The position numbers and the translations under genes were made by a program. Below are positions 2,155 through 24,771 of a stretch of 64,000 nucleotides of DNA, one piece after another. Source of the stretch: Bolinopsis microptera (lineage: Eukaryota; Ctenophora; Tentaculata; Lobata; Bolinopsidae); NCBI RefSeq assembly GCF_026151205.1, contig NC_087077.1, forward strand, positions 9,539,983 through 9,603,982, given 5' to 3'. Each line of letters opens with the position of its first letter. Positions within the stretch are counted from its first letter, which is position 1. The notes below the pieces were generated by a model. It saw only the letters and a list, made by a program, of their open reading frames with translations, had not been told where the DNA came from and made no database searches.

Positions 2155-2589
2155 GACAATACCAAAGACCCGAGTGCACTCGGGTCTGGATGATGATTAA
2201 TCACTCTACACTCGACTGTCACGTGACTTTTTCTACTCGTTCTCTAGCTGGTCCTGAACGACTATTCGAAACCCTAACCCTCTTATCTGATCCCAACCCT
2301 AACCCTAACCCAATCCTTAATAAAAGCATATGCTGAAACCCTAACCCTAACGAGAAATTGGACTAACTTCCTTATACGGTCATATCACGTGATCGAGACA
2401 GTTTTTCGCCAATATCTCGACAGGGGAGCATTTTAACCCTATGTCATAGGGGGTGATTCGGAATCATGAATCAGCGTCCGAAAATACATCGATTGAAGTT
2501 GGTTTCAACTGTCGGGGGCCCTTTTAGAACAATCTCGAAGATCGACTGTAGAGTGATTTAGCACGCTCGCTCGGGTCTTTGGTATTGTC
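2155..2589. repeat. 44-bp perfect palindrome split by an inserted element
   Basis: The arm at 2155-2178 plus the distal sequence (2570-2589) would form a perfect 44-bp palindrome centred on TGCA if the insertion at 2188-2569 and one copy of its 9-bp duplication were removed. The arms read GACAATACCAAAGACCCGAG and its exact complement. This suggests an older short hairpin element was the target of a younger insertion. Confidence 0.75.
2188..2569 (+). mobile_element. E-family inverted-repeat element with internal telomere-like repeats
   Basis: The 382-bp insertion is flanked by the exact 9-bp direct repeat CTCGGGTCT (2179-2187 and 2570-2578). Its ends are imperfect inverted repeats: the left end carries AATCACTCTACACTCGA and the complement of the right end carries AATCACTCTACAGTCGA. 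The interior holds several CCCTAACCC units (about 2270-2350) and the site CACGTGA. Related copies lie at 4725-5190 (inverted), 10859-11240, 12466-12600 (partial) and 17608-20707 (expanded). It has no coding capacity, so it is non-autonomous. Confidence 0.85.
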
Positions 2590-3785
2590 GTCGGTATATT
2601 GTCCATTATCTACGTTCTGCTTTCATAATTTCAACAATAGTGAGTTCTAAATATACAGCTTTAAACCGACTAAGTGTAGCCTGGATGAATTAAATACTTG
2701 ACAATCCGCACTCCTATAATTCAAAAGCATGAGTAACTCGTAGTGATGTATGATCCTTAAAAACTTAAAATTTAAATTTGTTGTCCTAAAAAAGTTGTTT
2801 TCCCATATAGCCTGCTAGTCTGTTGCTCACGTCTTTCATGCATGGATAGCCTAGGATGCCACGTGAAAAGGGTGCCGCGCACAAAATATTCAATCCACGT
2901 TCGGAAAGTATTTGTTACTGTTGCTTTATAATACAAACTAGTTTCATCGAACGATTTTTTCTTGCACATAAATCGTAAATCAAATCATTGATATATGCAG
3001 GATCAACAATAAAAACGATTAACTGTATCCATTCAAAATTTAAAAACTACAAACTAATATGAAATTTAATGTATTACATTAATATAGGTAACTCAAATCA
3101 AAATTTCGAACGCGCGTACGCAATGTGCATCAAACTCAAAACAATTGACAAAACAACCAAAAAATATTGCAATTTATAATCATAATGAAGTATGTCAATC
3201 TGTTGAGCAGAAATCAAAAATATTTGATACATCAAATATATAATAGGCTAGGCGCGCGCTATATTTTTACCAAAAGTACATCCAATAAATTTGATCTACG
3301 TACGTATTGAAATGTATCCTTGTGTAAATTTGTATTGATCCCGTTTGATGCGACAAAAAATTCTTTTATTAGGCAAGGAAATTACTAAACTGTCAACGTT
3401 TCAATGTTATTGACGTACGTAATTGCATGCCACTCTTCGCGCGCGAAGTGTTGTAACATTGTATCAACAATGTTACAACATCGTATGCATGATCTCAAAT
3501 TATTTGTTTGCTGTAGGGGTATTGGTATGGGTACCACTACCTAGTGGCCCTGGAGTCCGAAGAGATGATGTCCATATTAGGAGTTAGTTGGATGTTCATT
3601 TGTTGTAAAGGTTGAAGGTCGCGCGCGAAAAGTGGCATGCAACGTATGTCAAGGTAGTCTTATCAGCACGTTCGTTACTTGTAGGTTTATAATCTACCAG
3701 GACGCGCGCCGAGTTGGACTCGTCGACGGTTGAAACAATCATTTTACGAGTATCACCCGTTAACAGCTTACAATCTATCGGCGGC
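2590..3785. other. A+T-rich non-coding sequence with GCGCGC hairpin fragments
   Basis: No gene is supportable. Pieces of the G-family hairpin element (GCATGCCAC next to TTCGCGCGCGAA) occur near 3424-3455 and 3619-3652. Their flanks do not give a clean target duplication. Confidence 0.5.
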
Positions 3786-3930
3786 TTACTGGGCCGCGCT
3801 CAGCCTGTCATTCCGCCGAATCTCTATTGAACATAATAGCCTGAGGTCCCCAGGTTGCTCTAACCAGAGCCCTCTCGCTTGCAGTAGCGCGCGACCGCCG
3901 TACGCGTATACACATGGCTATGTGAATGCG
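3786..3930 (+). mobile_element. B-family and H-family short elements side by side
   Basis: A B-family copy starting TTACTGGGCCGCGCTCAGCC and ending GGTCCCCAGG runs directly into an H-family copy that starts TTGCTCTAACCAGAGCCCTC and ends ATGGCTATGTGAA. B has other copies at 4907 and 10597; H has others at 21069, 21447 and 24686. No clean target duplication is visible here, so the copies may be rearranged or decayed. Confidence 0.6.
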
Positions 3931-3944
3931 TAATACATACAACT

Positions 3945-4017
3945 TTGACGGATGTTACTCGTCTAAATTTCTTCGAAGTAGCGCGCGCCGGGCCAGATCA
4001 CCATTAACAATGGTCAA
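3945..4017 (+). mobile_element. D-family short element
   Basis: This 73-bp sequence runs from TTGACGGATGTTACTCGTC to a complement-related end (complement TTGACCATTGTTAATG). It has a GCGCGCGCCGGGCC core and matches the 126-bp D copy at 17429-17554, which has a clear 9-bp duplication. The flanks here are similar but not exact (CATACAACT and ATACAATTT). Confidence 0.6.
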
Positions 4018-4083
4018 ATACAATTTATTGAAATGTGTCTTCGCGGCAGGAAGGGTCCAGGAGATCACGACGTAATAAAGTAA

Positions 4084-4164
4084 TTGATACATGTTACGTA
4101 TCCCAAATATATATCTTCGGCGGCGCGCGCTTCGCGCGCGAAAGGTGGCATGCAACGTATGTCA
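4084..4164 (+). mobile_element. G-family short hairpin element, 9-bp target duplication
   Basis: This 81-bp element is flanked by ATAAAGTAA (4075-4083 and 4165-4173). It starts TTGATACATGTTACG; the complement of its end starts TGACATACGTTGCATGCC. The core GCGCGCGCTTCGCGCGCG can fold on itself. A related, uninterrupted host sequence near 29940 lacks the element, supporting insertion. Further G pieces lie at 3424, 3619 and 26156. Confidence 0.8.
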
Positions 4165-4299
4165 ATAAAGTAAGATCAAGACAATTTACATATTGGACAA
4201 GAATAATACACAAATATTATTAATAACGTTCGTTAACTTTGAATTTACAAAGTTAATTATTACTATCAACTAGATAACTTCAGAAATGGGACATTAATG

Positions 4300-4558
4300 C
4301 AATGGCGTAACGTTGCCTGTTGGTGCCCCCGCCGAAAATGCACCCCCTCCCCTGTTGGCGCCCCTCCCTAAAATTGAACAAAATAGGTGATTTTAGCATT
4401 TAATTTAGAGGATACGCTGGCAAAATCTTTAAAAAAGTGCGTTTCTAGAGCAAAACGCACAGTTTTGCTGGTACCTCAGTTGAGTTTTTCAAAATTGTCC
4501 CACATTCAAACGCGAACGACGATTTTGCGGGGTCAGCGGGGCTTTTGTTACGCCACTG
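4300..4558 (+). mobile_element. hAT-like non-autonomous element
   Basis: This 259-bp insertion has terminal inverted repeats CAATGGCGTAAC / CAGTGGCGTAAC and an 8-bp direct repeat CATTAATG / CATAAATG (4292-4299, 4559-4566; one mismatch). The related host sequence at about 30060-30100 has the uninterrupted site (GGACATAAATGAATAT). An 8-bp duplication and CAGTGGCG-type ends are characteristic of the hAT superfamily. Confidence 0.8.
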
Positions 4559-4608
4559 CATAAATGAATATCTTAAAATCTGATAAGTAGCAAGCGTGCT
4601 AAATCATT

Positions 4609-4726
4609 GTCATACGTTGTATGACCCGTCGCGCACGAAGTGACGATACTATAGTGACGATACTATAGTGACGATACTATAGTGACGATACTATAGTGAA
4701 GCGACAGTGGGGGTTACCACGTGATA
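4609..4726 (+). mobile_element. F-family short element with 14-bp tandem repeat
   Basis: It starts TTGTCATACGTTGTATGACC and ends GGGGGTTACCACGTGATACAA. Four copies of a 14-bp unit, GTGACGATACTATA, fill 4641-4697. It sits between two copies of CTAAATCA, the terminal sequence of the E-family element that follows, so it apparently landed in the end of an inverted E copy. Other F copies lie at 5603, 9890 and 17217. Confidence 0.7.
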
Positions 4727-5190
4727 CAACTAAATCACTCTACAGTCGATCTTCGAGATTGTTCTAAAAGGGCCCCCAACAGTTGTAATTAACTTCAATC
4801 GATGTATTTTCGGACGCTGATTCCGAATCACCCCCCATGACATAGGGGTGAAATGCTCCCCTGACGAGATATTGGCGAAGAACTGTCTCGATCACGTGAT
4901 ATGACCTTACTGGGCGGCGCTCAGCCTGTCATTCCGCCGAATCTTTATTCGGTTTATGTTTATGAACATAATAGCCTGGGGTCCCCAGGTAAGATATGAC
5001 CGTATAAGGAAGTTACTCTAATTTCTCGTTAGGGTTAGGGTTTCAGCATATGCTTTTGCTAAGGATCGGGTTAGGGTTAGGGTTGGGATCAGATTAGAGG
5101 GTTAGGGAATTTCGAATAGTCGTTCAGGTCCAGCTAGAGAACGGGTTGAAAAATTCACGTGACAGTCGAGTGTAGACTTAAAGTGATTAA
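4725..5190 (-). mobile_element. E-family element, inverted copy, interrupted by a B element
   Basis: This is the reverse-complement relative of the element at 2188-2569, with the same end motifs (TAAATCACTCTACAGTCGA and TGATTAATCATCATCC) and TTAGGG units at about 5028-5105. It is interrupted at 4907-4992 by a B element. No clean duplication is visible outside it. Confidence 0.75.
4907..4992 (+). mobile_element. B-family 86-bp element, 9-bp target duplication
   Basis: This insertion interrupts an E-family copy. The flanks are GATATGACC at 4898-4906 and 4993-5001. The same host sequence appears uninterrupted at 2380-2390 and 11045-11055. The ends are TTACTGGG and, on the complement, TTACCTGGG. 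Internal self-complementary segments (GCCGAATCTTTATTCGGTTT; CCTGGGGTCCCCAGG) give a strong hairpin. Confidence 0.9.
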
Positions 5191-5468
5191 TCATCATCCA
5201 CATCTCCTACGGTCATAAGTGCGCGTACCGTCACGAAATTGTCAACAGTTAACCTCATAAAAATAGTAAGGAGCAAAATTTAAAAAATCACTGCATCATG
5301 CATTATAATCGATTGTGCCTCTGTCAGGAACATATGTTCTAAATTTGAAATGATACGGATGAAAGTTCTAGGAGAAGATAGGTTTTGAAGGTGGTTTCAG
5401 GGGTCAATTGCTGACAGTGACAGGGGGAGGGGGTAAAATTGGTCAAAATCTTGCTGACGTTATATCAC

Positions 5469-5573
5469 TTGATTCACGATGTCAATCCTTCGCAGCTCGG
5501 TGAGGCACAGTGGTGCATCTCGCGAGAAGCATTATTTGATGCGCGCGCGACCAAGTAGTGCATCGCGCTACAA
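5469..5573 (+). mobile_element. C-family 105-bp element, 9-bp target duplication
   Basis: It is flanked by TTATATCAC (5460-5468 and 5574-5582). It starts TTGATTCACGATGTCAATCC; its complement starts TTGTAGCGCGATGCACTAC. The core is rich in GCGCGC. The duplicated copy of this locus near 13300 lacks it (CATATCACATATG), which gives an empty site. Other C copies lie at 11241 and 17405. Confidence 0.88.
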
Positions 5574-5602
5574 TTATATCACATAATATGTGAACGCTCC
5601 CT

Positions 5603-5715
5603 TTGTATCACTATCACGTCGTGACCCCAATTGTAGCGTTTCTACATGCTACACTTACAGCTCAGTACAGGGGGAGCCGCGCACTCGTGCGTGGCGGGTC
5701 ATACAACGTATGACA
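5603..5715 (-). mobile_element. F-family element, 9-bp target duplication
   Basis: This 113-bp element lies between direct repeats ACGCTCCCT (5594-5602 and 5716-5724; shared flanking letters extend the match to 11 bp). Its ends are TTGTATCACTATCACG and, on the complement, TGTCATACGTTGTATGACCC. The paralogous site near 13316-13326 (GAACGCTCCCTTAGG) is uninterrupted. Confidence 0.85.
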
Positions 5716-5892
5716 ACGCTCCCTTACTCTTAGTAGGGGTACGTTTCACGTGTTACTGTTAGATATGTTTATTGATTTTAAGTTAAACCGTCGTTTTTAA
5801 ATAATTTACAAAGAATCTAACACAAGTGTGTACAGTGTACACAGCACAATTACCAAATTTACAATCCGCCGTCATAATTTTCTACTATAACT

Positions 5893-6486
5893 AGGAGGTG
5901 CACCATAAAAATAAACTTGCTCGGATTTTAAAATTTTTTGTACCATTCTTTTCTAGAGACTGTGAGAATTTTCACAATACCAAATTTGTCATACCTTTTT
6001 GGAAAAATCAGTGAGTTTCGCCTAGGTGTCATATTTGATGGTGCGCGGCTTTAGGAGCAAAATTAGCTGTAAAAGTCGCGTAATTTGACCAAATTTGACC
6101 AAATTCGTTGGTTTTTGTCGTATTATTTGGATATATCTTCAGTTCCTTGAATGAGATCATTCTGAAAATTGGCGACGACCTTCCAATAGTGCTTTCACAA
6201 CTGTCCGAAAAATTTGGTGGATATCGGAGTTGATATAGTGATCAAAATGGGGCAAAATATGCTGCTTTTAGCTGTAACATAATGTCTGATGGTTAGATAT
6301 GCTTTAAACTTTTCGGACACTTTCCTTGTAAGTCTATGAGTAAGCTTACCAATTTTTGTTGCAATCGGAGGTCGGGAAGGATACTTAATATCTATTTGTT
6401 TGAAGAAAATTGTGCTGGCCGAAATTAGCGCTAAAAAACCATCCTACAGTCGGCACGCGCGGCTCACTGTCGATGGTGCACTACCT
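5893..6486 (+). mobile_element. A-family element, 594 bp, 9-bp target duplication
   Basis: It is flanked by ACTATAACT (5884-5892 and 6487-6495). The ends are AGGAGGTGCACCAT and, on the complement, AGGTAGTGCACCATCGAC. It has no long open frame. It landed in the sequence that corresponds to the C-terminal tail region of the neighbouring receptor gene. The copy at 11513-12079 is very similar throughout, and a third copy from 17345 is broken by nested insertions. Confidence 0.92.
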
Positions 6487-6495
6487 ACTATAACT

Positions 6496-6710
6496 TTGTC
6501 AACATCTTAATTTATAATTATTTTAGCTTCATCGCCTTTTCAGAATTAAAAAAAATTTCGGCTAGCGATTTAGTTAAAGCGGAAGGAGACACTTGTTCTA
6601 GGGTGGTCCATGTCTTCGTTGCCTTCCCATGTACTACTACTGCCTCCTCAGCTACATTGCATTTGCTTGTAGTCACATTTTCTACTATAGCTTCGTCAAC
6701 ATCTTCATTT
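6496..6710 (-). other. former C-terminal tail sequence of receptor copy 1
   Basis: Directly after the stop, another frame of the same strand continues with AIVENVTTSK, which aligns with TIAENYDDG in the tail of copy 2. A further, diverged copy of this unit sits on both sides of the A element (5880-5892 and 6487-6522). The tail was probably once coding and was lost through a small indel. Confidence 0.55.
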
Positions 6711-9389
6711 CTAATTATCTGAATTCTGATCATGAAGTTTTCTTCCGTTTGACAAATCATTGCTGATAAATCTAAAGCGTCTTTTCAAAGCCTTCATAAA
6801 AGTTAGGCCGTCGATCTGCATTGATTCATTAACAGAAACATATACAAACTCAACCAAAAACAGGATGAAAGAAATCGCGACTCCTGCACTAAGTAAATAA
6901 AACACTCCCGCTAAAGTGTCCAGATCCAACGTACCCTTCTCTGCCATGACTGATGTGGAACAAACGGTAGCTCCCCCTGTCCACTTTTCCCACAGACTGT
7001 CAATAAAACCTTCTTCTCTAAACTTTAGGAGATATGTGTCTATAATAGTTTCATACGGAGAGTCTTTTGGTAAACCAAAAGCGTACGCAAAGGATTGAAA
7101 CTCTTCTCCGACAGAAAATATATCACAGTCCCCTCCGAGATTGTATGCCAGGACGGGCGACTCATCTATGAAGACAAAGTTACCTTGACGTACTGTATCC
7201 AGGGCATCTGAAACGTTCTGTAACTTTATTCCCTCATTAGCAATTCTCAAGTATCTGGTGTCCATGTGCGTCTTCAGAAGAGTCTCAGGATGTCTGCTCC
7301 CAATAACCCCCCACTGGTACGTATCCTGTGCCAGTAAATCAAGGACTGTCTTCAAAGAAGTGCCGAGGTTACTGAGAGTAAGGGAGGCAGTGAGGTTAGC
7401 GGTGTACATGGAGGTTACAACCAACATGAAAGTCCACCAAATAATGATGAGGAACCGTCCGGATATACAAGGGAGTGCGGGAATTGACAATTCCACTTCA
7501 CCAGTGGCCATCATCCACAACGAGCTGATAAAGGAAGCCTCATCACTTTTACCCTCTTCCTCTGCCTTGTCTATCAGACAACCGTATAGCTTATTACCAT
7601 GTATTGAGCACCGTCTCTTCTTCATTTCATCTCTCTGTCCTGTACATTCGTTACAAGAACACGTTTTCACGGCGTAAAGTTTAGTTCCATACTTACTATA
7701 GGGAGAAAACTTACCAATGCAGGAGATGAGAGCAACCAGGATGAAATATGAAAGCAGAACCATCAACCAGACGAGAGGGTCGAATGGAGACAAAAAGAAG
7801 TATTTGTTACCTGTCTTTGATTCACCCTTCACCACCGCTTTTAAGCCTGCGTCCATAAACGCGAAGCTGAAATCAATGACAGTTTTTCTGGCTGAGTTAG
7901 TTGATAGGTCGATGGCTATTATGTCAGTTTTATCCGCTAGCAGATCTCCGATCATCCCATTCCATTCCTTGGTAGTCTCGTTTTTTGCTCCAAACTTTAA
8001 ATCAGCGGGGGAAATGTACTCATATGTGAAAGACAACTCTTCAGCTAGCCGTACCACCATGTCGTTAACCATTCCCGACCAGCAGGCATTTCCTTCGCAT
8101 TCCTTTGTGGAATGAAACATGAAAGGTTTCTCCTCGACTGTCCCTAATCTTAAGTGTCTATCTACCAGATTCTTATTAACACCAGTTGGAACGATATTGG
8201 TTCCGTCAAAAAACTGCATGTTTTGTGTCATCTGGAGGCCTGATGAGTTGGTCCAAGTACCGACCGTACTAAACTTATCATCCACAAAGTTCAGTATCTC
8301 GTAAGACGGCTCATTCCTTTCTCCGTTAATTGTAAAATTGATTTCTCCAGAAATTCCCGTATACCTGGTTTGTAGTATTGAATCCAGAACAGTTTTACCT
8401 TGGTTCCAACCTTCTGATTCAGAAGAACAATCCACGTCTTGTGTAATGTCCTCTGAAACTCCGATCAGTGCTTCGTCAACAAATCCTATTGCATCAAAAG
8501 TAAGATCTGTGTAACTGGTCAAATCTTCAGCTTTACCGACATTCAAAATGTAAGAGTCCTTATATTTCTTGTACTTGCTACTTTTTATTTGAGCTGGCTT
8601 GATCCCTATTAATCCCTCATAAAAACTCAAGGAGTTACCATTATCTTCCGCTAAATATTGAGGCTGTGCCGCAATGGCATCTGTAACTATCCACACATAT
8701 TCTGGTCCCATCAGACCTATCTCGTGGGCCTTTTCCAGGACACGTTTCCCAAACTCAGCTGCGGCATTGAGTACGATAACCTTGACAAGGGAGTGCCGGA
8801 TCTCTGACAGTGGGCCTGATATTTCCGTTGTAGTATTATCTGCTGAGAAAATGAGAAAATCTTTTAACTCTACACTTGAGTCTGTTAAAAGTAAATTCTC
8901 TAGTTTTATCATCCCGTTTAGTCCATACGAATCTGCCGTTGCCAGAATTGAAACTTCGTGCCAGTTGTAATATTTGATCAAATCGTAGATAGCTTCACTC
9001 TGATAAAAATCCGATGCCAACATTCGAATGATGTATTCCCGATTTTTATTCCAAAGAAACGGATCGGTCGCTGAGACTGCTATATGTGGTATTTCCAAGG
9101 GTGAGAATATGTCCGACTGAATGGCGGTGTCTGGAGAATCTCCTTTGGTGATGACCACAGAAACTCCCTCCGTCACCAGCTGACAACATGCTTCTATCAT
9201 GCTCTGCAGTTTGGTGTCATCATACTCCACTGTTACCAGAGTATAGGAAACGTTCTGTGCGGCGTAGCTGGACAAGCTCTTCAGGGCATTGTTGTACCTG
9301 TCTTGTTTTGAGATAAGGAATCCTACTTTGGTTTCGGAGAAGGAAAGTGTGAGAGCGCAGAGAAAGGACAATAGTTTGTACGAATACAT
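6711..9389 (-). CDS. ionotropic glutamate receptor subunit (copy 1), 892 aa
   Basis: A ligand-gated cation channel subunit, expected in the plasma membrane as a tetramer. The start at 9389 gives a signal peptide (MYSYKLLSFLCALTLSFS). Residues about 20-360 form the amino-terminal, periplasmic-binding-like domain. S1 of the ligand clamshell follows, with the alpha-carboxylate-binding Arg at about 501 in STNSARKTVIDFS. M1 is at about 536-558 and the pore loop at about 622-642. M3 carries MYTANLTASLTL at about 661, close to the family SYTANLAAF. S2 has an acidic ligand contact (E743 in FIDESPVLAYN) and M4 is at about 825-852. The S2 style (FIDESPVL, KDSPY) is nearer NMDA-type than AMPA-type. An unusual Cys-rich M1-M2 loop is at about 577-604. 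No intron is needed. The C-tail stops 28 residues earlier than in copy 2. Subfamily and ligand are not decidable by eye. Confidence 0.93.
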   Translation of the reverse strand: MYSYKLLSFLCALTLSFSETKVGFLISKQDRYNNALKSLSSYAAQNVSYTLVTVEYDDTKLQSMIEACCQLVTEGVSVVITKGDSPDTAIQSDIFSPLEIPHIAVSATDPFLWNKNREYIIRMLASDFYQSEAIYDLIKYYNWHEVSILATADSYGLNGMIKLENLLLTDSSVELKDFLIFSADNTTTEISGPLSEIRHSLVKVIVLNAAAEFGKRVLEKAHEIGLMGPEYVWIVTDAIAAQPQYLAEDNGNSLSFYEGLIGIKPAQIKSSKYKKYKDSYILNVGKAEDLTSYTDLTFDAIGFVDEALIGVSEDITQDVDCSSESEGWNQGKTVLDSILQTRYTGISGEINFTINGERNEPSYEILNFVDDKFSTVGTWTNSSGLQMTQNMQFFDGTNIVPTGVNKNLVDRHLRLGTVEEKPFMFHSTKECEGNACWSGMVNDMVVRLAEELSFTYEYISPADLKFGAKNETTKEWNGMIGDLLADKTDIIAIDLSTNSARKTVIDFSFAFMDAGLKAVVKGESKTGNKYFFLSPFDPLVWLMVLLSYFILVALISCIGKFSPYSKYGTKLYAVKTCSCNECTGQRDEMKKRRCSIHGNKLYGCLIDKAEEEGKSDEASFISSLWMMATGEVELSIPALPCISGRFLIIIWWTFMLVVTSMYTANLTASLTLSNLGTSLKTVLDLLAQDTYQWGVIGSRHPETLLKTHMDTRYLRIANEGIKLQNVSDALDTVRQGNFVFIDESPVLAYNLGGDCDIFSVGEEFQSFAYAFGLPKDSPYETIIDTYLLKFREEGFIDSLWEKWTGGATVCSTSVMAEKGTLDLDTLAGVFYLLSAGVAISFILFLVEFVYVSVNESMQIDGLTFMKALKRRFRFISNDLSNGRKLHDQNSDN

Positions 9390-9885
9390 CCTGACTAGGT
9401 GAGGTGTTGTGTAGATTAATGATGGTTAGAATGATATCTGCTTTAATGAAAATATTGCACTGCCTACAGTCAGAACATCAATGAAAGCTGGCGGCATTAC
9501 AAATGATGTATATTAGAGCTTTTCATTACAAGTTAAAACGAGGCCTTCATATTACGGAGCCAGGGTGTGGACTGGTTAAAGCCGACTAAAGTCGAAAGCT
9601 TTATTCGAGGACATTTAAGCCTAAGGGGGCAGGGAGCCGGGGGTGGGGAGCGTCTTCATGGAAATAGCTAAATTTATCGCTGGTCAGTGGTGAAAGGGCA
9701 TTGAAATACAACAACAGATGAGTAAACTTTTATCCGCGGAAACAGGAAAGTAGAAAGATCCAGTATGCAGTACGAGATCGGGGACGGGTTCTATGAACAA
9801 ACAGTCGATTGAATTATCGAATACAATGCGTGCTGCATATTTACCTGCGCAAAGTTATTTACGAAAAATTAATTTGCAAATTTTT
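9390..9885. promoter_or_regulatory. upstream flank of receptor copy 1
   Basis: This is the 5' flank shared almost base for base with 16696-17190. It presumably includes the 5' UTR and promoter, but I see no unambiguous TATA or initiator element. The strong conservation may simply reflect recent duplication. Confidence 0.35.
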
Positions 9886-9889
9886 TGTC

Positions 9890-10003
9890 ATACGTTGTCA
9901 GTTAATTGTATGACCCGCTGCGCACGAGTGCGTGGCTCCCCCTGTATCGTCGAAACTCTACACTATAGTGAAGCGATCTCGTGGGGGTCACCACGTGATA
10001 CAT
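9890..10003 (+). mobile_element. F-family element upstream of receptor copy 1
   Basis: It starts TTGTCATACGTTGTCAG, carries CCGCTGCGCACGAGTGCG, and ends GGTCACCACGTGATACA. The flanks GCAAATTTT and TCAACTTTT look like a decayed 9-bp duplication. The copy upstream of the second receptor sits about 20 bp away in the homologous sequence. Confidence 0.65.
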
Positions 10004-10596
10004 CAACTTTTGTTGTATGAGTGTGTGCGCGCAAGCGTAATGTTTACTTAAGGACCTATGTGTCATGCTGCATGCTTTATTTGATTGACGATCAGACGAT
10101 GTCAACCCATCGAGATCGTTGCTTTGTAGAGTCAGAAGAAGACCTACGCCGCAGACTAACACCAACAGATTTGAGATTATCACCTCAACTTTTGTGATGA
10201 AATAACATCCGTCAGACGGCTGAATACGTTACCGATCATATTCATAACAGCTAGGGCTAAACGACCCCGTCATCAGAATGAGAAAAAACCTTCCTTTTGT
10301 TATATTCTCATATTGTATGTTAGTTTGGTGTGAAGTATAATGTTCTTTTTAAAAACTAACATTGTTAAACTAAATAATATCAGTAAAAGATGATATATTT
10401 TTCAACAGGTAAAATTCATATAATTGACGATTAAGAGATAAAGGAGTGTGTTCAGGACTCTGAAAGTGGTATAACTATACTCTTATAGCAATGGTATGAA
10501 ATGATTAACTTTATAGTCAAGGTCTCGTGTCTCTATGACCTTTGCTTTTGGCGCAGTGAATCTTGCGTTTCAGCGCAATGCGCAAATTCTTACTAC
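10004..10596. other. non-coding spacer
   Basis: A+T-rich sequence between the duplicated block and the next repeat cluster. No supportable gene was found. Confidence 0.5.
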
Positions 10597-10735
10597 CACT
10601 GGGCCGGGCCGCGCTCAGCCTGTCATTCCTCCAAATCTCTATTTGGTGTTATCAGTTATGTTAATGAATATGATAGCCTGAGGTCCCCATTGTCATAGGT
10701 TGTATGACCCGCCGCGCACGAATTTAAAACACATT
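10597..10735 (+). mobile_element. B-family and F-family fragments
   Basis: A B-like copy (ACTGGGCCGGGCCGCGCTC to GAGGTCCCCA) abuts an F-like start (TTGTCATAGGTTGTATGACC). Neither is complete, and no target duplication is visible. Confidence 0.55.
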
Positions 10736-10858
10736 TAAAACACTCCTTCGTGACTAAATCGACGATTTAGAGAATTTTACGCATTCAAAGCTCGACTTTA
10801 ATGTTATAAAAATGAACTGATAGCGAGTGGAGCATCGTCAAAGGGTCACTTCTGGGAA

Positions 10859-11240
10859 GGATGATGATTAATCACTCTACACTCGACTGTCACGTGACTT
10901 TTTCAACCTGTTCTCTAGCTGGTCCTGAACGACTATTCTAAACCCTAACCCTCTAATCTGATCCCAACCCTAACCCTAACCCAATTCGTAACAAAAGCAT
11001 ATGCTGAAACTTTAACGAGAAATTAGACTAACTTCCTTATACGGTCATATCACGTGATCGAGACAGTTTTTCGCCAATATCTCGGTAGGGGAGCATTTTC
11101 AATTTTAATCCTATGTCATGGGGGCCGGGGGTGACTCGGAATCAGCGTCCGAAAATACATTGATTGCAGTTGATTTCAACTGTCGGGGGCCCTTTTAGAA
11201 CAATCTCGAAGATCGACTGTAAAGTGATTTAGCACGCTAG
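10859..11240 (+). mobile_element. E-family element with telomere-like interior
   Basis: Close relative of 2188-2569 with the same ends (GGATGATGATTAATCACTC to TTTAGCACGCTAG) and CCCTAACCC units at about 10942-10985. The left flank TTCTGGGAA and the sequence after the nested C element, TTTTGGGAT (11370-11378), match at 7 of 9 positions, consistent with an old 9-bp duplication. Confidence 0.8.
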
Positions 11241-11360
11241 TTGTAGCGCGATGCACTACTGGGTCGCGCGCGCATCAAATAATGCTTCTCGCAACCGGTA
11301 GATCGGCGAGATGCACCACTGTGCCTCACCGAGCTGCGAAGGATTGACATCGTGAATCAA
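11241..11360 (-). mobile_element. C-family 120-bp element, 9-bp target duplication
   Basis: Inserted into the end of the preceding E element. The flanks GCACGCTAG (11232-11240) and GCACGCTCG (11361-11369) differ at one base, and the second matches the E end at 2561-2569 exactly. It runs TTGTAGCGCGATGCACTAC to CATCGTGAATCAA, the reverse orientation of the copy at 5469. Confidence 0.85.
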
Positions 11361-11512: not shown

Positions 11513-12079
11513 AGGGGGTGCACCATAAAAATAAACTTGCTCGGATTTAAAAAATTTTTGTATCATTGTTTTCTAGAGACTGTGAGAATTTTCACAGTAA
11601 CAAATTTGTCATACCTTTTTGGAAAAATCAGTGAGTTTCGCCTAGGTGCCATATTTGATGGTGCGCAGCTTTTGGAGCAAAATAAGCTGTAAAAGTCACG
11701 ATTTTTGTCGTATTATTTGGATATATCTTCAGTTCCTTGAATGAGATCATTCTGAAAATTAGCGACGACCTTCCAATAGGGCTTTCACAACTGTCCGAAA
11801 AATTTGGTGGATATCGGGGTTGATATAGTGATCAAAATGGGGCAAAATACGCTGCTTTTAGCTGTAACATAATGTCTGATGGTTGGATATGCTTTAAACT
11901 TTTCGGACACTTTCCTTGTAAGTCTATGAGTAAGCTTATCAATTTTTGTTGCAATCAGAGGTCGGGAAGGATACTTATTAATATCTATTTGTTTGAAGAA
12001 AATTGTGCTGGCCGAAATTAGCGCTAAAAAACCATCCTACAGTCGGCAAGCGCGGCTCACTGTCGATGGCGCACTACCT
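11513..12079 (+). mobile_element. A-family element, 567 bp, 9-bp target duplication
   Basis: Flanked by ACTACATGT (11504-11512 and 12080-12088). The ends are AGGGGGTGCACCAT and, on the complement, AGGTAGTGCGCCATCGAC. It is nearly the same sequence as 5893-6486 apart from small indels. Two copies with different target duplications show independent transposition. Confidence 0.92.
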
Positions 12080-16695: not shown

Positions 16696-17190
16696 CCTGA
16701 CTAGGTGAGGTGTTGTGGAGATTAATGATGGTTAGAATGATATCTGCTTTAATGAAAATATTGCACTGCCTACAGTCAGAACATCAATGAAAGCTGGCGG
16801 CATTACAAATGATGTATATTAGAGCTTTTCATTACAAGTTAAAACGAGGCCTTCATATTACGGAGCCAGGGTGTGGACTGGTTAAAGCCGACTAAAGTCG
16901 AAAGCTTTATTCGAGGACATTTAACTTTAAAGCCTAAGGGGGCGGGTAGCCGGGGGTGGGGAGCGTCTTCATGGAAATAGCTAAATCTATCGCTGGTCAG
17001 TGGTGAAAGGGCATTGAAATACAACAACAGGTGAGTAAACTTTTATCTGCAGAAACAGGAAAGTAGAAAGATCCAGTATGCAGTACGAGATCGGGGACGG
17101 GTTTTATGAACAAACAGTCGATTGAATTATCGAATACAATGCGTGCCATATTTACCTGCGCAAAGTTATTTACGCAAAATAAATTTGCAA
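16696..17190. promoter_or_regulatory. upstream flank of receptor copy 2
   Basis: Near-identical to 9390-9885. It is a candidate promoter and 5' UTR for the receptor on the minus strand, by position only. Confidence 0.35.
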
Positions 17191-17216
17191 ATTTTGTTGT
17201 ATGTTTGTGTGTTGTC

Positions 17217-17341
17217 CGTCATACGTTGTACGACCCGCTGCGCACGAGTGCGCGGCTCCCCCTGTATCGTGGAAATTCTAACATAGTGAACAGTGAAACC
17301 CCACCATAGTGAAACGACCGTGGGGGTCACGACGTGATACA
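17217..17341 (+). mobile_element. F-family element upstream of receptor copy 2
   Basis: Runs from GTCATACGTTGTACGACCCG to GGGGGTCACGACGTGATACAA, with CCGCTGCGCACGAGTGCG inside. It lies at a slightly different homologous position from the F copy at 9890, so the two look like separate insertions. Confidence 0.65.
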
Positions 17342-17428
17342 AAGTAGGGGGTGCACGATAAAATAAACTTGTTCGGATTTTCAAAATTTTTGTACCACTG
17401 TTTTTTGATTCACGATGTCAATCCTTCG

Positions 17429-17554
17429 TTGACCATTGTTAATGATCTGGCCCGGCGCGCGCTACTTCGTAGCACTTGCCGTCGGGCCATAACATTTCGA
17501 GAAGAAAACGGCGCGCGCTACTTCGAAGAAATTTAGACGAGTAACATCCGTCAA
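17429..17554 (+). mobile_element. D-family 126-bp element, 9-bp target duplication
   Basis: Flanked by AATCCTTCG (17420-17428 and 17555-17563), which interrupts the C element; the intact C sequence at 5480-5497 has the site once. It starts TTGACCATTGTTAATG; the complement of its end starts TTGACGGATGTTACTCGTC. The core is GGCCCGGCGCGCGC. Confidence 0.9.
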
Positions 17555-17844
17555 AATCCTTCGCTGTTCGCAGCTCGGTAAGGCACAGTGGTGCATCTCG
17601 CTGATCTCGCTCCTACTAAATCGCTCGCCCAAATTTTAAGAAAATTCTTGTGAAAAGGCCCTTCGGGTATGAATTTAATCTGGATCGGTGTATTTTTGGA
17701 CGCTGATTCCGAATCACCCCCCATGACGTAGGGTAAAAATGCTTCCCTGGAGAGTTATGGGCAAAAAACCGTTTTGGTCACGTGACAGGCTAGTAAAACA
17801 TGAATTCGATTGTTTAGGGCTCGGGTTAGGGTTAGGGTTGTTAC

Positions 17845-20570
17845 TTTACTTGGGTTACTTGGGTTGGGTTCCGAGCTAGAGTGCTACCAGGCCAAGAATG
17901 TCTTGCATCTCCACCGCCAAGTAGTAGCACGTCAGACACATGTGCCACCGGCCCACTCCAGCATTGAGTTCCTGTTCTGTCCAGTGTACCCAGGTGTTGG
18001 TGGAGTGTCAGGGAATTCATTGAGGAAAGCATCAAGAGCAGGTTTGAAAGTGGTCAAGGTTAGGAGGGACTTGATGCTAGGAGGGACCACGTTGTACAGT
18101 GCAGAGGCTCTAGAGGCAAAGGAGTTGAACCTCAGGTTATTGACACTATTGTACTTGGAGGACCCTAGTGGTCGTATACACGTAGTTCCGTATCGTGAGG
18201 TCTCGCGGAAGTTGATGTTCATACTGTTTGGAGCGAGATTGTTATAGATCTTCCAAACTAGGATGATAGTGTATCTCTCACGCCGCCTGTAAGGAACCTC
18301 GAAATTCTATATTAATTTCAATCTTCCTTTAAAGATAGTTAAATGAATTAGGCTTATAGTTAACAACCATTTCCATAGAGGATAGATAGTAAATTTGTTA
18401 ACGATAGAAGTATACCAGAAATGGAATATACGTTGACGTTTAATTAACAAAAGGACACTTTCTGTGAGAAAACTATCAAATCATTTGACACGCTTGATGA
18501 GTTACCACGGACTTATAGAGGGGTTAATTAGGAGCACAAGACCAGCCTATCACAAGACGAAGCGTGACGAGGAATGATAAGCAGGGAGTTTAAACAAGGA
18601 GGAGCAATTTCGATCGGGATGAACAATACTGCGTTCCCTGAGAAAAGGCTGGAACGGCAGAATAGACTCTGGGAAATTCAGGGAGATATAGCGGAGAATG
18701 ATCGAAGGACCGATGTCTTTCTCACGTCAGGGCAGTCTGTTAGGTTGTGTCAGTGCAACGTGCTTGTAAACAGAGTCCAGTAAGTGAGTAAGCTGGTTCC
18801 GCCCGGGTGCTTTAACCTTTCCAGTCATAAGTATTCCAGTTGCAGTGGATCCGATCCGTCGCATCGAATAGATTCCACCGTACATTAAAGAACAGTGACT
18901 ATTAAGTTTCCGGGTAGAAGTAAGCTAACGACGATAAGATTCCCGATCTCCTTCTCACTTGAAGGACCCTGGACCATTATACGGATTGAAGTTGTTCTCG
19001 AGGTAGAGAGACACGAACATTCCTGCTCAAACCGTGCTGCCTTTGCCGATACCTGCTAGAGTAATTGATTCTCCTTCGTCAACCGAGACCATTCGTGACA
19101 GTCAAACTGTTGACGGTGAGACTCAGTCAAAGACGCGTGATATTCCAGCCCTCCTACACTATTTCTAAGAGAGAGACTTATCATAAGGTGATTGCACCAG
19201 CATATACTTAGATACCAAGATAGTTCCTTTAATTAGGTTATGAGAAGAATTTCTACCGTGTCAATTAATTAGTATAGTATCAAAATGTTACTTTCATTGT
19301 TATATAAACATCTTTCAAGACAAGAAGGTTTTCGCTCATTAATTATACTACCATTAGTTGTTCTATATTTTGTTCTATATTGTCGTTTCAATTTGTGTCA
19401 ACCCACCAAAATTGAAAGTCTGAATTATAATCACTAACCGCACTAAATTAAATAAAAAGTAACATGAAACTCTGAATTCTAGCAAAACTATAATTTCCAT
19501 AAAACAAAAGTTTTAAGACGCTCAATCGTGGGTTCAGAACCTTCCGAAACGGACTCTCTTGATATAACCGGGGCCTCCCATGTATAGTTCTAGCCAAGTC
19601 AAAAGGAGCTCTAAATAAATAATTTCTTGGAGGAAATAAAGTACTACATACCATGGACATGGGAGAGGTGATTATTACCCGGTACTTGCAACTAACACCT
19701 GATTAAATTGGTACCGTGGTTAATAACACCGCCTCTGAAGGGAGTACATAGACAGGCGACGGAGGCGTTCCCAGTAGTTGAGACTTCCAATTCAAGACAC
19801 TGGATTTTAGCAGTGAAGGATCGTTGAACTGCTTCGAGTTTGATAATTTCGCACTGCATGTGAGGAGACCACAGAGGACAGCAGTATTCCAGATGAGATC
19901 GTACGTAGGACTTGTACAGGAGCATCATGGTCGCTACATCCCTGGAGATGAAGGTGCGTAGCACCCAGCTAGCCATGTTTCTGGCTTTGGCAGACTTCAT
20001 CGCTATGTGAGTGCGCCAGTTGAGGTCTGGGTCGATATAGACACCCAGGTCCTTCACGTGGTCAGAGCCCTTAAGAGTCTCTCCAGATGGTAGGATGTAG
20101 GGCTGCTTCAAGTCTTGTAGTTTGCCGTGTTGTAGAAGCTGGAACTTTTCCTCGTTAAGCTCCATGTTGTTAGCATCAGCCCAATTCACAACCGAGAGAA
20201 GATCTTCTTGGAGAAGGATGCGATCGATATGGGGAAATATATCTTTGTGGAGCTTCGAGTCATCTGCAAACACTTTTATCTTGCTGTGCTTGACAACGGA
20301 GAAGATGTCGTCAATGTAGATGAGGAAGAGAAGGGGACCTAGGACAGTACCCTGAGGAACCCCACTGATGACATCGATGATCGTGGACATGACCCCATCC
20401 ACGATAACATGCTGCTTTCTGCCAGTAAGAAAGCTGGCTATCCAGTCGTAGAGCTTACCACGGATACCAAAGGCCTGGATCTTCTTGAGAAGAATCTTGT
20501 GGTCAACCTTATCAAAGGCTTTGCTGAAGTCGAGGTAGAGCACGTCAGCATTTTTGTCGAGGTTGTGGAA
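17845..20570 (-). pseudogene. LINE (non-LTR retrotransposon) reverse transcriptase, truncated and split
   Basis: On the minus strand from about 20570 an RT domain reads YLDFSKAFDKVDHKILLKK, then SGVPQGTVLGPLLFLIYIDD, then the catalytic FADDSK. It continues through PILNWR-like and SHLEYCCPLWSP motifs to QRSFTAKIQ. Reading continues out of frame as LNYWERLRRLS up to 19734. The remaining C-terminal part (ERYTIILVWKIYNNLAPNS to NSFASRASALYNVVPPSIK) lies at 17932-18282, after a 1.44-kb insertion. The 5' end, with endonuclease and the first RT motifs, is missing. It is sandwiched between TTAGGG-type repeats on both sides. The RT style is CR1/Jockey-like; the exact clade is uncertain. Not functional. 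Confidence 0.85.
18288..19728. mobile_element. 1.44-kb LTR-like insertion (possible solo LTR) in the LINE
   Basis: It is flanked by the exact 5-bp repeat CCGCC (18283-18287 and 19729-19733). It begins TGTAAGGAACCTCG and ends with the complement of TGTTATTAACCACG, giving TG...CA termini and a short imperfect inverted repeat. Those features fit a solo LTR, although 1.4 kb is long. No gag or pol is present. A DNA transposon with 5-bp duplication is the alternative. Confidence 0.6.
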
Positions 20571-21068
20571 AGGGTTATGGATAGCTTCGGGGTTATGGTT
20601 AGGGTTAGGGTTGGGATTAGGGTTTATGTAAAACCGTTTTGTACGGCTGCAAAACCATAAAAACCAAAGTCACGTGAAATTTTTGGGCGAGCGAATTAGT
20701 AAAAGCCCGCCGATCTACCGAGAAGCATTATTTGGTGCGCGCGCGTGTTTTAGCGCGATGCACTATATAGTTATACTGGGTCGCGCGACCCAGTAGTGCA
20801 TCGCGCTAAAGCACTGTTTTCTTACTAGAGACTGTGAGAATTTTCACAGTACCAAATTTGCTATACCTTTTTGAAATGATCAGTGAGTTTCACCTAATAT
20901 ATAAGTGCCATATTTGATGGTGCGCGGTTTTCGAGCAAAAGTAAGTGTAAAAGTCGCCTAATTTGACGAAATTCGTTGATTTTTGTCGTATTACTATTAT
21001 TCTGTCATATCTTCTATTCCTTAATATAAATGAAATCATTCTGAACATTCAACATTGTCATTTGTGAA

Positions 21069-21176
21069 TTGCTCTATTCACTTCCAGAGCCCTTGCGCTT
21101 GCAGTAGCGCGCGCCCGCCTCTTGACTTGTGAAACAAGCGCGCCCGAAGTGGCGCGAAAGCACATGGTTAGGTGAA
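21069..21176 (+). mobile_element. H-family 108-bp element, 9-bp target duplication
   Basis: Flanked by ATTTGTGAA (21060-21068 and 21177-21185), inside the third A copy. It starts TTGCTCTATTC, contains CGCTTGCAGTAGCGCGCGCC, and ends ACATGGTTAGGTGAA. Confidence 0.88.
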
Positions 21177-21446
21177 ATTTGTGAAGACTGAAGACCTTCC
21201 AATAAAGCTTTTACAAGTACAACTGTTAGCTGTCCGAAAAATTTGGTGGATATCGGAGCTGATATTAAATGATATAGTGATCAAAATACGCTGCTTTTAG
21301 CTGTAACATACTGTCTGATGGTTTGATATGCTGAAAATTTGTTGGGCACTTTCCTTGTAAGTGTATGAGTAAGCTAACCAATTTTTGTTAAAATTGGATC
21401 AAGGGAAGGTTACTAAATACGCATTAAAAAACCATTCTACACTATA

Positions 21447-21517
21447 TTGCTCTAACCAGAGCCCTCTCGCTTGCAGTAGCGCGTCACGCAGTACGCGTAG
21501 GCACATGGCTATGTGAA
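21447..21517 (+). mobile_element. H-family 71-bp element, 9-bp target duplication
   Basis: Flanked by TACACTATA (21438-21446 and 21518-21526). It starts TTGCTCTAACCAGAGCCCTC and ends CATGGCTATGTGAA. Confidence 0.88.
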
Positions 21518-21744
21518 TACACTATATACATCTATACATATTGATATACTTCACGACAATCTGTTGTAAAACAGGAGTTCCAGGAAGCCCACTTCCCGAT
21601 ACTGGATACTGTACTCCTTAAACATGAAAAAAAAAATTACAGTCGATTTGGTCAACGTCTAAACGCCCTTCAAAGTTTCAGATCTCTAACTCAATTTTAA
21701 CATGGTTTTTAAGGCACCTGAATATGGCTATTTTGGGTTTTTAC

Positions 21745-22290
21745 CGAATTTCGGGCACTATCCGTCGTGGAGTAGAGTCCGCGGCGGAGCCGCCGGACTC
21801 CGAGCGGACTCCGGCGGTGCTCCGCCAAAATGTATTTCGTTTGGACTCGTATACATTTTGGCGGACTCCGAGCGGAGCCGAGCGGACTCCGAGCGGACTT
21901 TAAAGTCCGCCGCGGACTCCGAGCGGCTCCGCGGCGGTTCGGCGGAGTGTCCGCCGCGGACTAAGCCACTAGGCGGACTCGGCGGACTCTCCGCCGGACT
22001 TGAATCCGGCGGAGTCCGGCGGAGCTTGGCGGAGTCCACCGGCTTCCAACAGAGTCCACTGACTTCCGACTTCCGACTTTCGACTTCCGACCCTCGGCTA
22101 AATTTGTCACGTGACATACAACATAGCATTTTGCGATATTGTGGTCAGATGAAAAGGTCGCTAGTGATAAACCTTAACCATTACCCTCACAATGTCAATA
22201 GCGTAGAACTCTAATCCTAACTTTGACCCTATAATGTATAAACGTTGACCCTAACCCTCCACCAAACCGTCAGCAGCGAAATATCAATGT
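21745..22290 (+). repeat. GC-rich palindromic repeat K, copy 1
   Basis: A strongly GC-rich core (about 21776-22085) is built of short, self-complementary variants of TCCGAGCGGACTCCGGCGG. It is followed by CGACTTCC units, CACGTGAC and A+T-rich sequence ending at CAGCAGCGAAATATCAA. An inverted copy lies at 28143-28752. Open frames through the core reflect codon bias of the repeat, not genes. Confidence 0.75.
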
Positions 22291-22343
22291 CATTGACTGG
22301 TCACGTGACCAATACAATTTTTGTCATAATATCTCATATAGTA

Positions 22344-24307
22344 CAGTCAAATCCGTCCTAATTTAAGCCTTTGTCGGACAAAATTCGCAACAAAGCGATT
22401 TTAACGGGATATGGTCGGGACAGGTCCCAGGAATCATTCCAGAGAGTTCCCAAAATCCTCGACTTCAGGAAAATCCACAATTACCACTTTTTTACCACCT
22501 TTTTACCACTTTGGTTTTCTGCAAATAAGTCACGTTCTGAATATCCTAGAAGATTCTAGTTTAAAGCATTGTGTTTAGAAAACAAAGAAGAACAACTTTT
22601 CCTTTAACAACTTTTTCAAAAATAAATTATTTAATTAATAAATTAAATAATTAATAAAATTTCAAATATTTCAAAAATATATTTTCATAAAAAATGTTCA
22701 CAATTACATTCCACGTGCAATGAACTAATTTTTATAAAAATTTTCACTTTCAATATTTTGGACTTGTAAAATTTTCGAAATTCGTAAAGAATAACCACTA
22801 TTTATCACTTTTTATCACAAGACGTCACTCAGAGCTGAATCAGTCATGCCGTTGTACTGCCGTTTAATTTCGTTCAGTGACCAGGGGTTGTTGATCCAAC
22901 CTGTGGTGCGTTGATTTCTTTATTTATACAAGGTATGAGAGGCGTCAGGATAAAGAATAGGACTGTACGTATCCGTTTCAAATTTGCTGGGCATAGTTTA
23001 AAAGTTAGTGCACTTACTTAAAAGATAAATAGTTTAAATAGTACCTGAGGACAGCAACCCTTTCCATATTTCATTCCATGCAAATTTACATTGTCGATCA
23101 TTCGCCCTCTTAAAGCTATTCACCGAAACTAACTCCTCATTTGCCTGGTAAATTAAAACATTGTATTGGTTAAGAATAGCTGATTTCATAAAAATCGAGA
23201 TCACTAGATGAAGCAAGACTTTCAGTTCTTGAACAGAAGTCGCAATCTTCAACAGCAGACATCAAGTGCGAACAGCTCCCGCCAACATTCTTATCGTGTT
23301 TACCATCAGCAGCAGGTGTGGGATGAGAATGACCTAGATCCGATAAGCTGGGATGGAAGATGAACAATGGGACACATGTACCAGTGACCACTCTTATGAG
23401 TACAGCTCCGAAAAAGCTCATTCAAAAAATCAGTTGCAAATGTTTAAAGTCAGGTTGTGGCAATGAAGCAGGAATACATTGTGGATCAACCTGCCTCAAA
23501 TGTCAGGACAATTGCAGCAATGTGCCAGCTGAGGACTCATAAGTTAGACTGTTATCTAGTATATATATGGTTATATAAAGAATTACTTCGATTTCCCGAT
23601 TAATTTAATGGAAATTTGTTAATTATTCGTGATATGTAATTTTAAAATATTTTGATCAAAAATAATTTTTATAATTTTTGGATATTTGTTTAATAATCGA
23701 ATTAACTAATTAATTAATTATCTAATCCAAAGGTTGTCAGATAAAACTTTGTTCTCTTTATATTTTGAACACATTGGTTCAATCTAGAACCTTCTACGAT
23801 ATTCAGAAGTCGTTTTTTTAGCGGAGATTCAATGTGGTAAAAAGTGGTAAATAGTGGTTTTTCTTCTCAAATTTCGTAAATTTTACAAGTTCAAAATATT
23901 GTTAGTGAAAATTTTCAAAATTTTCATAGAAATTAGTTCAATATTCGTGGAATGTAATTGTGAACATTTTTCATGAAAATGTATTTTTGAAATATTTTAA
24001 AATTTATTAATTATTTAATTAATTAAATAAATAATTTATTTTTGAAAACGTTGTTAAAGAAAAAGTTGTTCTTCTTTGTTTTCTTAACACAATGCTTTAA
24101 ACTAGAATCTTCTAGGATATTCAGAACGTGACTTATTTGCGGAAAACCAAAGTGGTAAAAAGGTGGTAAAAAAGTGGTAACTGTGGATTTTCCTGAAGTC
24201 GAGGATTTTGGGAACTCTCTGGAATGAATCCTGGGACCTGTCCCGACCATATCCCGTTAAAATCGCTTTGTTGCGAATTTTGTCCGACAAAAAGACGGAT
24301 TTGACTG
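22344..24307 (+). mobile_element. Tc1/mariner-pogo-like element with about 500-bp inverted repeats
   Basis: The ends are CAGTCAAATCCGTC on both strands, directly flanked by TA (22342-22343 and 24308-24309). Inverted-repeat similarity extends about 480-500 bp inward (22344-22830 against 23810-24307), including TTGTCGGACAAAATTCG and TGGTAAAAAGGTGGTAAAAA motifs. A TA duplication and CAGTCAAA-type ends fit the Tc1/mariner-pogo group. No DDE transposase remains; the middle carries a Cys-rich fragment. Confidence 0.75.
23250..23542 (+). pseudogene. Cys-rich transposon-associated protein fragment
   Basis: One frame reads RVYHQQQVWDENDLDPISW and, after a one-base shift, the next continues VPVTTLMSTAPKKLIQKISC and CKCLKSGCGNEAGIHC. 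It then reads GSTCLKCQDNCSN and stops at 23540. The Cys spacing resembles CXC (tesmin/TSO1-like) segments found at the end of some repeat-associated proteins in invertebrate genomes. This is an impression from pattern only. The frameshift and lack of a start mark it as a remnant. Confidence 0.4.
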
Positions 24308-24685
24308 TACTAATATATAGGGAAGCGTTTTTAGTTTTACCCTACACGTTGCATGTGGCGTCATTCGGCCGCCCGGCCGGATCCCAGCAAGCAAAAATAC
24401 GTCGACCATCACAGGACGACGCCAGCACTTTCTGACTCTACGCTCTTCGAGCTCCGATCGTCCTGTGACGAAGTAAGGACGAAGCCTGAGGTCCTCAAGC
24501 TCAGGTAACATCGACCACCGATTGAAAATTCAGAAATTTTTTGACATAAAGGTCAAATGTAAAACTAAAATCTTGATGTTGATTGATTGACGACGTCAAT
24601 TTTTGAGCACAGCGCGAGCGCATGCGGAAAAGGACCGCGTAGCTAGTCAAGATGTTGATAAATATTTGGCTTGTGGCGCGATGTG

Positions 24686-24762
24686 TTGCTCTAACTATAG
24701 CCCTCTCGCTTGCAGTAGCGCGCGACCGCCGGAGGCGGAAATGACCTGGTTAGCTAGGTGAA
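24686..24762 (+). mobile_element. H-family 77-bp element, 9-bp target duplication
   Basis: Flanked by CGCGATGTG (24677-24685 and 24763-24771). It starts TTGCTCTAACTATAGCCCTC, carries TTGCAGTAGCGCGCGACC, and ends TAGCTAGGTGAA. Confidence 0.9.
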
Positions 24763-24771
24763 CGCGATGTG

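Follow-up and report, generated by a model that had tools for sequence, protein, structure and literature searches.

The window analysed here is a 64,000-nucleotide stretch of the genome of the ctenophore Bolinopsis microptera (G000:C6:9539983-9603982); it carries short repeated elements of several families, denoted by letters, which are genuine, mobile DNA and have transposed. In families B, C, D, F and G both ends of the element consist of TT followed by a 17-bp imperfect palindrome (arms of 7 and a centre of 3 nucleotides, hereafter 7-3-7), and the target-site duplication (TSD) leans by family toward 8 or 9 bp. The genome searched amounts to 264.65 Mb in 232 contigs, of which C1-C13 (15.2-26.2 Mb each) account for about 258 Mb; the family ends were fixed first and the flanks of the best-matching copies were then read for TSD length.

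Two C elements lie at 5469..5573 (+; 105 bp; 9-bp TSD TTATATCAC) and 11241..11360 (-; 120 bp; 9-bp TSD GCACGCTAG/GCACGCTCG, one mismatch). A third, at 17405..20811 (+; TSD CACTGTTTT), is inserted in an A element and is itself split by a D element (17429..17554, +; 126 bp; 9-bp TSD AATCCTTCG) and by a long E element (17608..20707, +; 3100 bp; 9-bp TSD CGCTGATCT/CGCCGATCT, one mismatch), a nesting worked out by eye. A B element (4907..4992, +; 86 bp, TTA...TAA; 9-bp TSD GATATGACC) lies within an E element, and the exact empty site is present in uninterrupted E copies. The G element at 4084..4165 (-; TTG...CAA; 8-bp TSD TAAAGTAA) and the F element at 5603..5716 (-; 8-bp TSD CGCTCCCT) measure 82 and 114 bp, where the original prediction, made from the letters of the window, had 81 and 113 bp with 9-bp TSDs (ACGCTCCCT for F). 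Three insertions with 8-bp TSDs had been overlooked there: an F element within an E element (4607..4729, +; TSD CTAAATCA), an I element (24774..24866, +; 93 bp, TTGTAGGATGAAATCCTAC ... TTAACGGGTGATACGCGTA; TSD GATGTGCC) and a long G element (26155..27178, +; 1024 bp; TSD TATTGTAA) carrying the 3' fragment of a long interspersed nuclear element (LINE) with a 70-aa frame. The fourteen readable 9-bp duplications originally quoted, two of them written with ambiguity letters, each occur at least twice in the window. Twelve flank intervals of less than 700 bp, and in one of these the ambiguity letter marks a difference between the two copies (GCACGCTAG/GCACGCTCG). The remaining two enclose a nest of insertions: CACTGTTTT (17396 and 20812, 3.4 kb apart) flanks the C that splits an A, and CGCYGATCT (17599 and 20708, 3.1 kb apart) flanks the 3.1-kb E that, like D, splits this C.

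Three H elements, at 21069..21176 (+; 108 bp; ATTTGTGAA), 21447..21517 (+; 71 bp; TACACTATA) and 24686..24762 (+; 77 bp; CGCGATGTG), are bordered by 9-bp TSDs. The first two have their own separate duplications. For the third, 17 of 20 further copies (20 of the 40 listed) share both the CGCGATGTG duplication, one with a mismatch, and the flanks; it is therefore a single insertion that was multiplied inside a larger host repeat. Just upstream of this amplified insertion, 22370-24291 holds an element whose 375-bp inverted arms (95% complementary) are separated by about 1.2 kb.

Genome-wide searches by family, as the original prediction had proposed, returned thousands of copies. The F left end occurs at 2767 places (at most 2 mismatches) and the G left and right ends at 607 and 517, the reversed-pattern control giving 0 for each; a first look gave 1494 candidates for C, 1599 for D and 957 for H, these being candidate counts in which copies were not scored. 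Being short, non-coding, present in numerous near-identical copies and bordered by a TSD of fixed length, the elements have the features of miniature inverted-repeat transposable elements (MITEs). In the sequence examined, 219 family-like ends had no partner giving a duplication; these were taken as truncated, nested or old copies and left unsorted. No earlier description of the elements was found in the open-access literature, Repbase lying outside the scope of that search, and nothing in the window reached the gathering score of an Rfam model, the lone weak match (U6, within 3400-6500) lying far under the cut-off.

The original prediction held that all the duplications were of 9 bp. This is true neither of F, where 16 of 17 two-ended copies have an 8-bp TSD (13 exact, 3 with one mismatch) and one a 7-bp TSD, nor of G, where the best 20 of 41 matches comprise 18 at 8 bp (16 exact, 2 with one mismatch), one at 7 bp and one with none; both families were read with TTG...CAA fixed at both ends. 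The 9-mers first quoted for the window F and G copies, ACGCTCCCT and ATAAAGTAA, are an 8-bp duplication plus one chance A. C and D lean the other way: among the best 30 of 41 C matches, 23 are at 9 bp (21 exact, 2 with one mismatch), 4 at 8 bp and 3 have none, and the best 20 of 44 D matches give 14 at 9 bp (13 exact, 1 with one mismatch), 3 at 8 bp (2 exact, 1 with one mismatch) and 3 with none. For B and I, 5 of 7 and 8 of 9 independent copies, respectively, are at 8 bp and the remainder at 9 bp, from a harvest that accepted only these two lengths. Differing duplication lengths among genome-wide copies, which had been named as grounds for abandoning the idea, are thus found in part, in the form of coexisting 8-bp and 9-bp families. 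A few sampled copies share a site (L052/L053, a C tandem pair counted twice; L117/L118 in G; L006/L008 in F). When the left flank of one copy was set against the right flank of another, matches fell to 3/870 for C, 2/380 for D and 2/380 for G, some of them stemming from duplicated loci.

The target sites have an A+T-rich middle, and their first base is most often G (16/36 sites at 8 bp, 14/37 at 9 bp). A blind count of maximal 6-12-bp duplications with matching 3-nt ends, which demands duplications that cannot be extended, found an excess of TTG among 8-bp and 9-bp duplications (11 each) in the loci chosen for C and F, a weak one in the window (3 and 2) and none in the loci of Mutator-like elements (MULEs).

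Excision of nested elements gives a separate view of duplication length. In seven cases the nested element and one copy of its duplication were removed and the product was compared with uninterrupted copies of the host repeat; four matched at the called length, with 0, 1, 3 and 4 mismatches in 32-33 bases, and a shift of 1 bp either way was worse each time. B in E matched at all 33 bases, whereas a duplication taken as 1 bp shorter or longer gave 9 and 8 mismatches; the corresponding mismatch counts are 1 against 11 and 9 for C in D, 3 against 8 and 7 for F in D, and 4 against 10 and 6 for F in E.

The palindromic architecture of the ends was measured on ten ends (B, C, D, F and G), picked by family and not by palindrome, and compared with 500 shuffles. 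Standard pairs fill 84.3% of the 70 cells versus 49.5% when shuffled, none of the 500 shuffles reaching as high; two-sided changes number 29 versus 9.1 in shuffles, and sliding the partner by 1-3 columns drops pairing to 20-46%. Pairing is 87.6% over 15 ends once five more are included, these having been harvested from families I, J and K with a palindrome filter. Across all the sequence examined, a sample enriched for C and F, there are 383 TT-flanked 7-3-7 palindromes versus 162-220 for other centre lengths; in the window alone, the figures are 76 and 33-57. The two ends of one element, by comparison, match at only 7-13 of 19 positions (seven families; mean 10.3, with 8.7 between families), so that the matching terminal inverted repeats (TIRs), common to an autonomous element, by which MITEs are recognised are not found here. 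The TTG end and GC-rich core noticed originally in C, D, F, G and H can be seen in their letters, and several families with unrelated interiors do have a common end architecture, its stronger element being the TT plus palindrome at each end. Whole-element structure was considered as the common feature and rejected: fold z-scores are -4.4 for F, -4.2 for B and -2.0 for I, and G, H, C and D lie between -0.5 and -1.6.

Taken together, we consider it probable, though by a modest measure, that families B, C, D, F, G and I (and probably H, J and K) are non-autonomous DNA transposons mobilised in trans by a single DDE-type transposase or by a few related ones. Several observations weigh against this. 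Both the mover and its enzyme class are deduced from the fixed TSDs, because no same-ended element with a complete transposase was seen, and the split between 8 and 9 bp may reflect two movers; the C, D and G copies examined, being the best matches to the query, favour young copies. In the empty-site comparison D in C, C in G and G in D gave no match (at most 4 mismatches) at the called length, although the test windows in these three cases may extend beyond the end of the host repeat; D in C matched best at 10 bp rather than 9 (4 mismatches), and because of this result our confidence was lowered slightly. On the ten ends, two of the five pair-count measures are less distinct, pairs with any two-sided change numbering 6 versus 5.1 in shuffles (171/500 as high) and further pair types 15 versus 11.2 (22/500 as high), and the covariation tallies ends rather than independent events. 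The F right and G left ends hold 5/7 standard pairs, and H, the ends of which are palindromic by eye in another geometry, falls outside 7-3-7 and was excluded from the pair counts. In the window and MULE loci together, TT with centre 3 gives 128 palindromes, little more than with centre 2 (104) or centre 4 (111). The end palindromes could also be relics.

The hairpin-forming potential of both ends, with pairing kept despite sequence change, is what would be expected if a single-strand, hairpin-reading HUH mechanism (Replitron or IS200/REP-like; REP, repetitive extragenic palindrome) moved the elements, the end palindromes acting as one-strand hairpins. Bacterial REPs are palindromes linked to a transposase (PMC2817692), and Replitron TSDs are of 2-8 bp (PMC10741241). 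However, the near-fixed TSDs of 8 or 9 bp mark staggered double-strand cuts, and Replitrons have short direct terminal repeats (PMC10741241), unlike the inverted ends (TT...AA) seen here; we regard this mechanism as highly improbable.

The search for a mover covered the MULE, Merlin and hAT families (P, KDZ and HUH were not searched for) and found none. A and E carry ordinary TIRs without TTG ends and are not of the TT-palindrome type. E is represented at 2188..2569 (+; 382 bp; TIRs GGATGATGATTAATCACTC / CGAGCGTGCTAAATCACTC; 9-bp TSD CTCGGGTCT) and A at 5893..6486 (+; 594 bp; inverted repeat AGGnGGTGCACCAT / AGGTAGTGCACCAT; 9-bp TSD ACTATAACT) and 11513..12079 (+; 567 bp; 9-bp TSD ACTACATGT). 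The TSD is of 9 bp in both intact window copies of A and in 5 of 8 independent copies of E (one with a mismatch), the other 3 having none. The two families form a group apart, with ordinary inverted repeats and 9-bp duplications; a MULE-type mover is plausible for them, the 9-bp TSDs and some G-rich starts making MULE the best guess. The original suggestion that one transposase moved all of families A to H is left unsupported, the ends of A and E being quite different and no mover having been found. Within the long E (17608..20707), a minus-strand open frame at 19692-20543 is reverse-transcriptase-like by eye. E interiors also hold short CCCTAA/TTAGGG runs, again by eye (2280-2350, 4993-5107, 10930-11000, 17820-17850 and 20590-20630); this is the telomere-type repeat of animals.

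MULE TSDs measure 8-11 bp. A TSD of about 9 bp, as such an enzyme would leave, is found in C and D, which are mostly at 9, with F and G mostly at 8. That a MULE transposase moves the TT-palindrome elements, the short ones being MULE-derived MITEs, would also be compatible with the range of 4-10 bp given for IS256/MuDR in PMC10045372, and the MULE transposase domain PF10551 is found at 88 genome places, a few of which have open frames of around 500 aa. The MULE boundaries that can be read are nonetheless without TT-palindrome ends, which leaves the originally favoured mover unsupported: inverted repeats at L014 (9-bp TSD AGTTTTTAT) and L022 (9-bp TSD CATGGCCAC), ends chosen by eye among several hundred candidate pairs per locus, begin with GG; of the right ends of five MULE clusters, four are G-rich and repetitive and one begins AAGTGTGTGT; and in none of the 30 loci examined among the 88 (with flanks of 1.5 kb) is the MULE domain enclosed by a pair of TT-palindrome ends with a TSD, the largest cluster (L026-L033) extending beyond the sequence covered. 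For these elements a MULE mover therefore seems unlikely.

A Merlin/IS1016-type transposase would account for the mixture of lengths, as Merlin TSDs are of 8 or 9 bp (PMC8101967), and PF12762 matches 63 genome places when E values up to 10 are admitted; 58 of these pass the cut-off, and several have frames of 295-337 aa. In the same source, however, Merlin ends have a conserved 5'-GG and matching inverted repeats, whereas TT is found at 10/10 of the family-chosen ends here. An apparently complete Merlin of this genome (L137, 746-2613; 8-bp TSD GGAATCAG), one of 3 of the 63 loci examined, has the same features and begins GGCA. We judge movement by Merlin to be decidedly improbable.

The original prediction had called for a longer element with the same ends and a transposase gene; long G elements of up to 8.1 kb do exist. 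Pairing of G ends on contigs C1-C3 within 12 kb, using 95 left and 98 right ends among the 100 + 100 listed, gave 52 pairs, of which 43 are at most 150 bp apart, 2 are 150-600 bp apart and 7 are 3.5-8.1 kb apart, with 43 left ends lacking a partner among those listed. All seven long elements have perfect 8-bp TSDs, every one different; same-ended elements thus move across a size range of about 80 bp to 8.1 kb. Three were fully read. L138 (7066 bp) holds an array of 91-bp tandem units along with pieces of a hAT gene and of a LINE-like sequence; L156 (4.8 kb) consists mainly of units of about 330 bp that occur in both orientations; the repeats in L157 (7.2 kb) are of other kinds. No complete transposase in a single open frame was found in these three, an intron-split gene being possible in L138. 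The 1024-bp G of the window is a shorter relative of the 7-8 kb G elements: it matches L138 over 53 bp at the left end (100%), over 180 bp at the right end (96%) and over 770 bp in between (96%). Its 70-aa frame was considered as a transposase and set aside: the longest frame among its relatives (L113, 1027 aa) resembles, by eye, the protein of a retrotransposon lacking long terminal repeats, and the 70-aa frame is therefore read as a captured LINE 3' end. A Pfam scan of a 55-aa piece of it gave no match. The tandem arrays in long G elements (91-bp units at 764-3125 of L138; L156) indicate that satellite-like DNA is spread too.

The long G elements bear on the possibility that a hAT transposase moves the 8-bp families, with long G as a decayed autonomous hAT. 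One hAT gene fragment is common to five of the seven and occurs at 15 genome places at 84-100% identity; the hAT identity of the L138 fragments follows from a collinear relative, L140, with 53-84% identity over four protein pieces and a Dimer_Tnp_hAT match at E 6e-19. No hAT model was hit when parts of L138 and its read-through frames were scanned with Pfam and NCBIfam, and a PDB search with one L138 piece gave nothing useful. Splice-like borders by eye would allow a split gene in L138. A hAT transposase prefers the target nTnnnnAn and leaves an 8-bp TSD; the length agrees, but the pattern is present at 0/36 sites, with about 2 expected by chance. The hAT elements examined in this genome, moreover, end CAAGGGTCGACC (L140, L142, L143) or CAGTAAAC (L139, L141). 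L138 itself contains, at 736 and thus upstream of its hAT fragments, a copy of CAAGGGTCGACC with one mismatch (background 1 hit per 665 kb, both strands), and for this reason the hAT part is read as nested cargo. Neither L156 nor L157, two of the three long G elements fully read, matches the hAT fragment, no PF05699 place among the 150 scored (out of 365 candidates) falls within the seven, and the 9-bp families would be left unexplained. Long G as an autonomous hAT was set aside, its hAT part being probably nested cargo, and we regard a hAT mover as quite improbable.

Returning to one or a few DDE-type transposases, the putative enzyme would pair two TT-palindrome ends, reading the symmetry of each site plus the terminal TT(G). 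Symmetry is proposed since little else is common to the left and right ends of an element; it might be read by a pair of subunits, one on each palindrome arm, or as an extruded hairpin. Strand transfer at target positions staggered by 8 or 9 bp would then give the duplication. The interiors would be free, and cargo is therefore carried (hAT and LINE fragments, tandem repeats, other MITEs).

Transposon ends are mostly thought to be recognised by sequence, hence a MITE normally resembles its partner element. As the sequence here is rather free and the palindrome is kept even between the two ends of one element, structure or symmetry may be recognised instead. In that case a single mover could take up sequences unrelated to one another, and the origin of so many tiny families in one genome would be explained. 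It is conceivable, although we think it unlikely, that one ctenophore transposition machine reads palindrome shape (7-3-7 next to TT) and not sequence, serving many families with unrelated, poorly matching ends and cargo of at least 8 kb, and that it represents a shape-reading class in animals.

The nearest known systems differ in part. MITEs of MULE or Merlin type are alike in being short, non-coding and of high copy number, with a fixed TSD, inverted termini, nesting and longer cargo-bearing relatives; here, however, the ends match poorly, each is palindromic in itself, and the terminal letters are TT instead of GG. The tiny elements may also be likened to bacterial REP/REPIN sequences (RAYT transposases), in which two inverted palindromes stand beside a short conserved foot. 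To our knowledge REPs make no target duplication, whereas the elements here make duplications of 8 or 9 bp. Foldback elements (FB; Tm1 of root-knot nematodes, PMC3169594) recall the inverted arms of tandem units of about 330 bp in L156, but 43 of the 52 paired G ends (among the ends listed) are at most 150 bp apart and without such arms.

In Mnemiopsis, more than 90% of loop promoters are reported to have DNA-transposon insertions, and loop anchors to share a common GC-rich motif with two CpGs (PMC12221973). The GC-rich cores of the present elements may have seeded GC-rich regulatory motifs such as this ctenophore loop-anchor motif; any link between the GC-rich MITEs here and the Mnemiopsis anchors would be hypothetical.

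The remainder of the window contains a tandem pair of glutamate receptor genes with uninterrupted frames, at 6711-9389 and 13933-16695 (-). The closest solved structure to the first (6711-9389) is ML032222a (E 9e-121), which we take to be from the ctenophore Mnemiopsis, the next molecule being at 3.5e-71. Long open frames at 35265-36821 (+) and 59557-61764 (-) resemble what are presumably Penelope-type reverse transcriptases. A very G+C-rich repeat of CGGAGT type occurs at 21702-22214 and 28320-28740, which look by eye like inverted copies, and 52609-53526 holds a hexanucleotide array of about 0.8 kb that, when translated, reads as alternating T-L.

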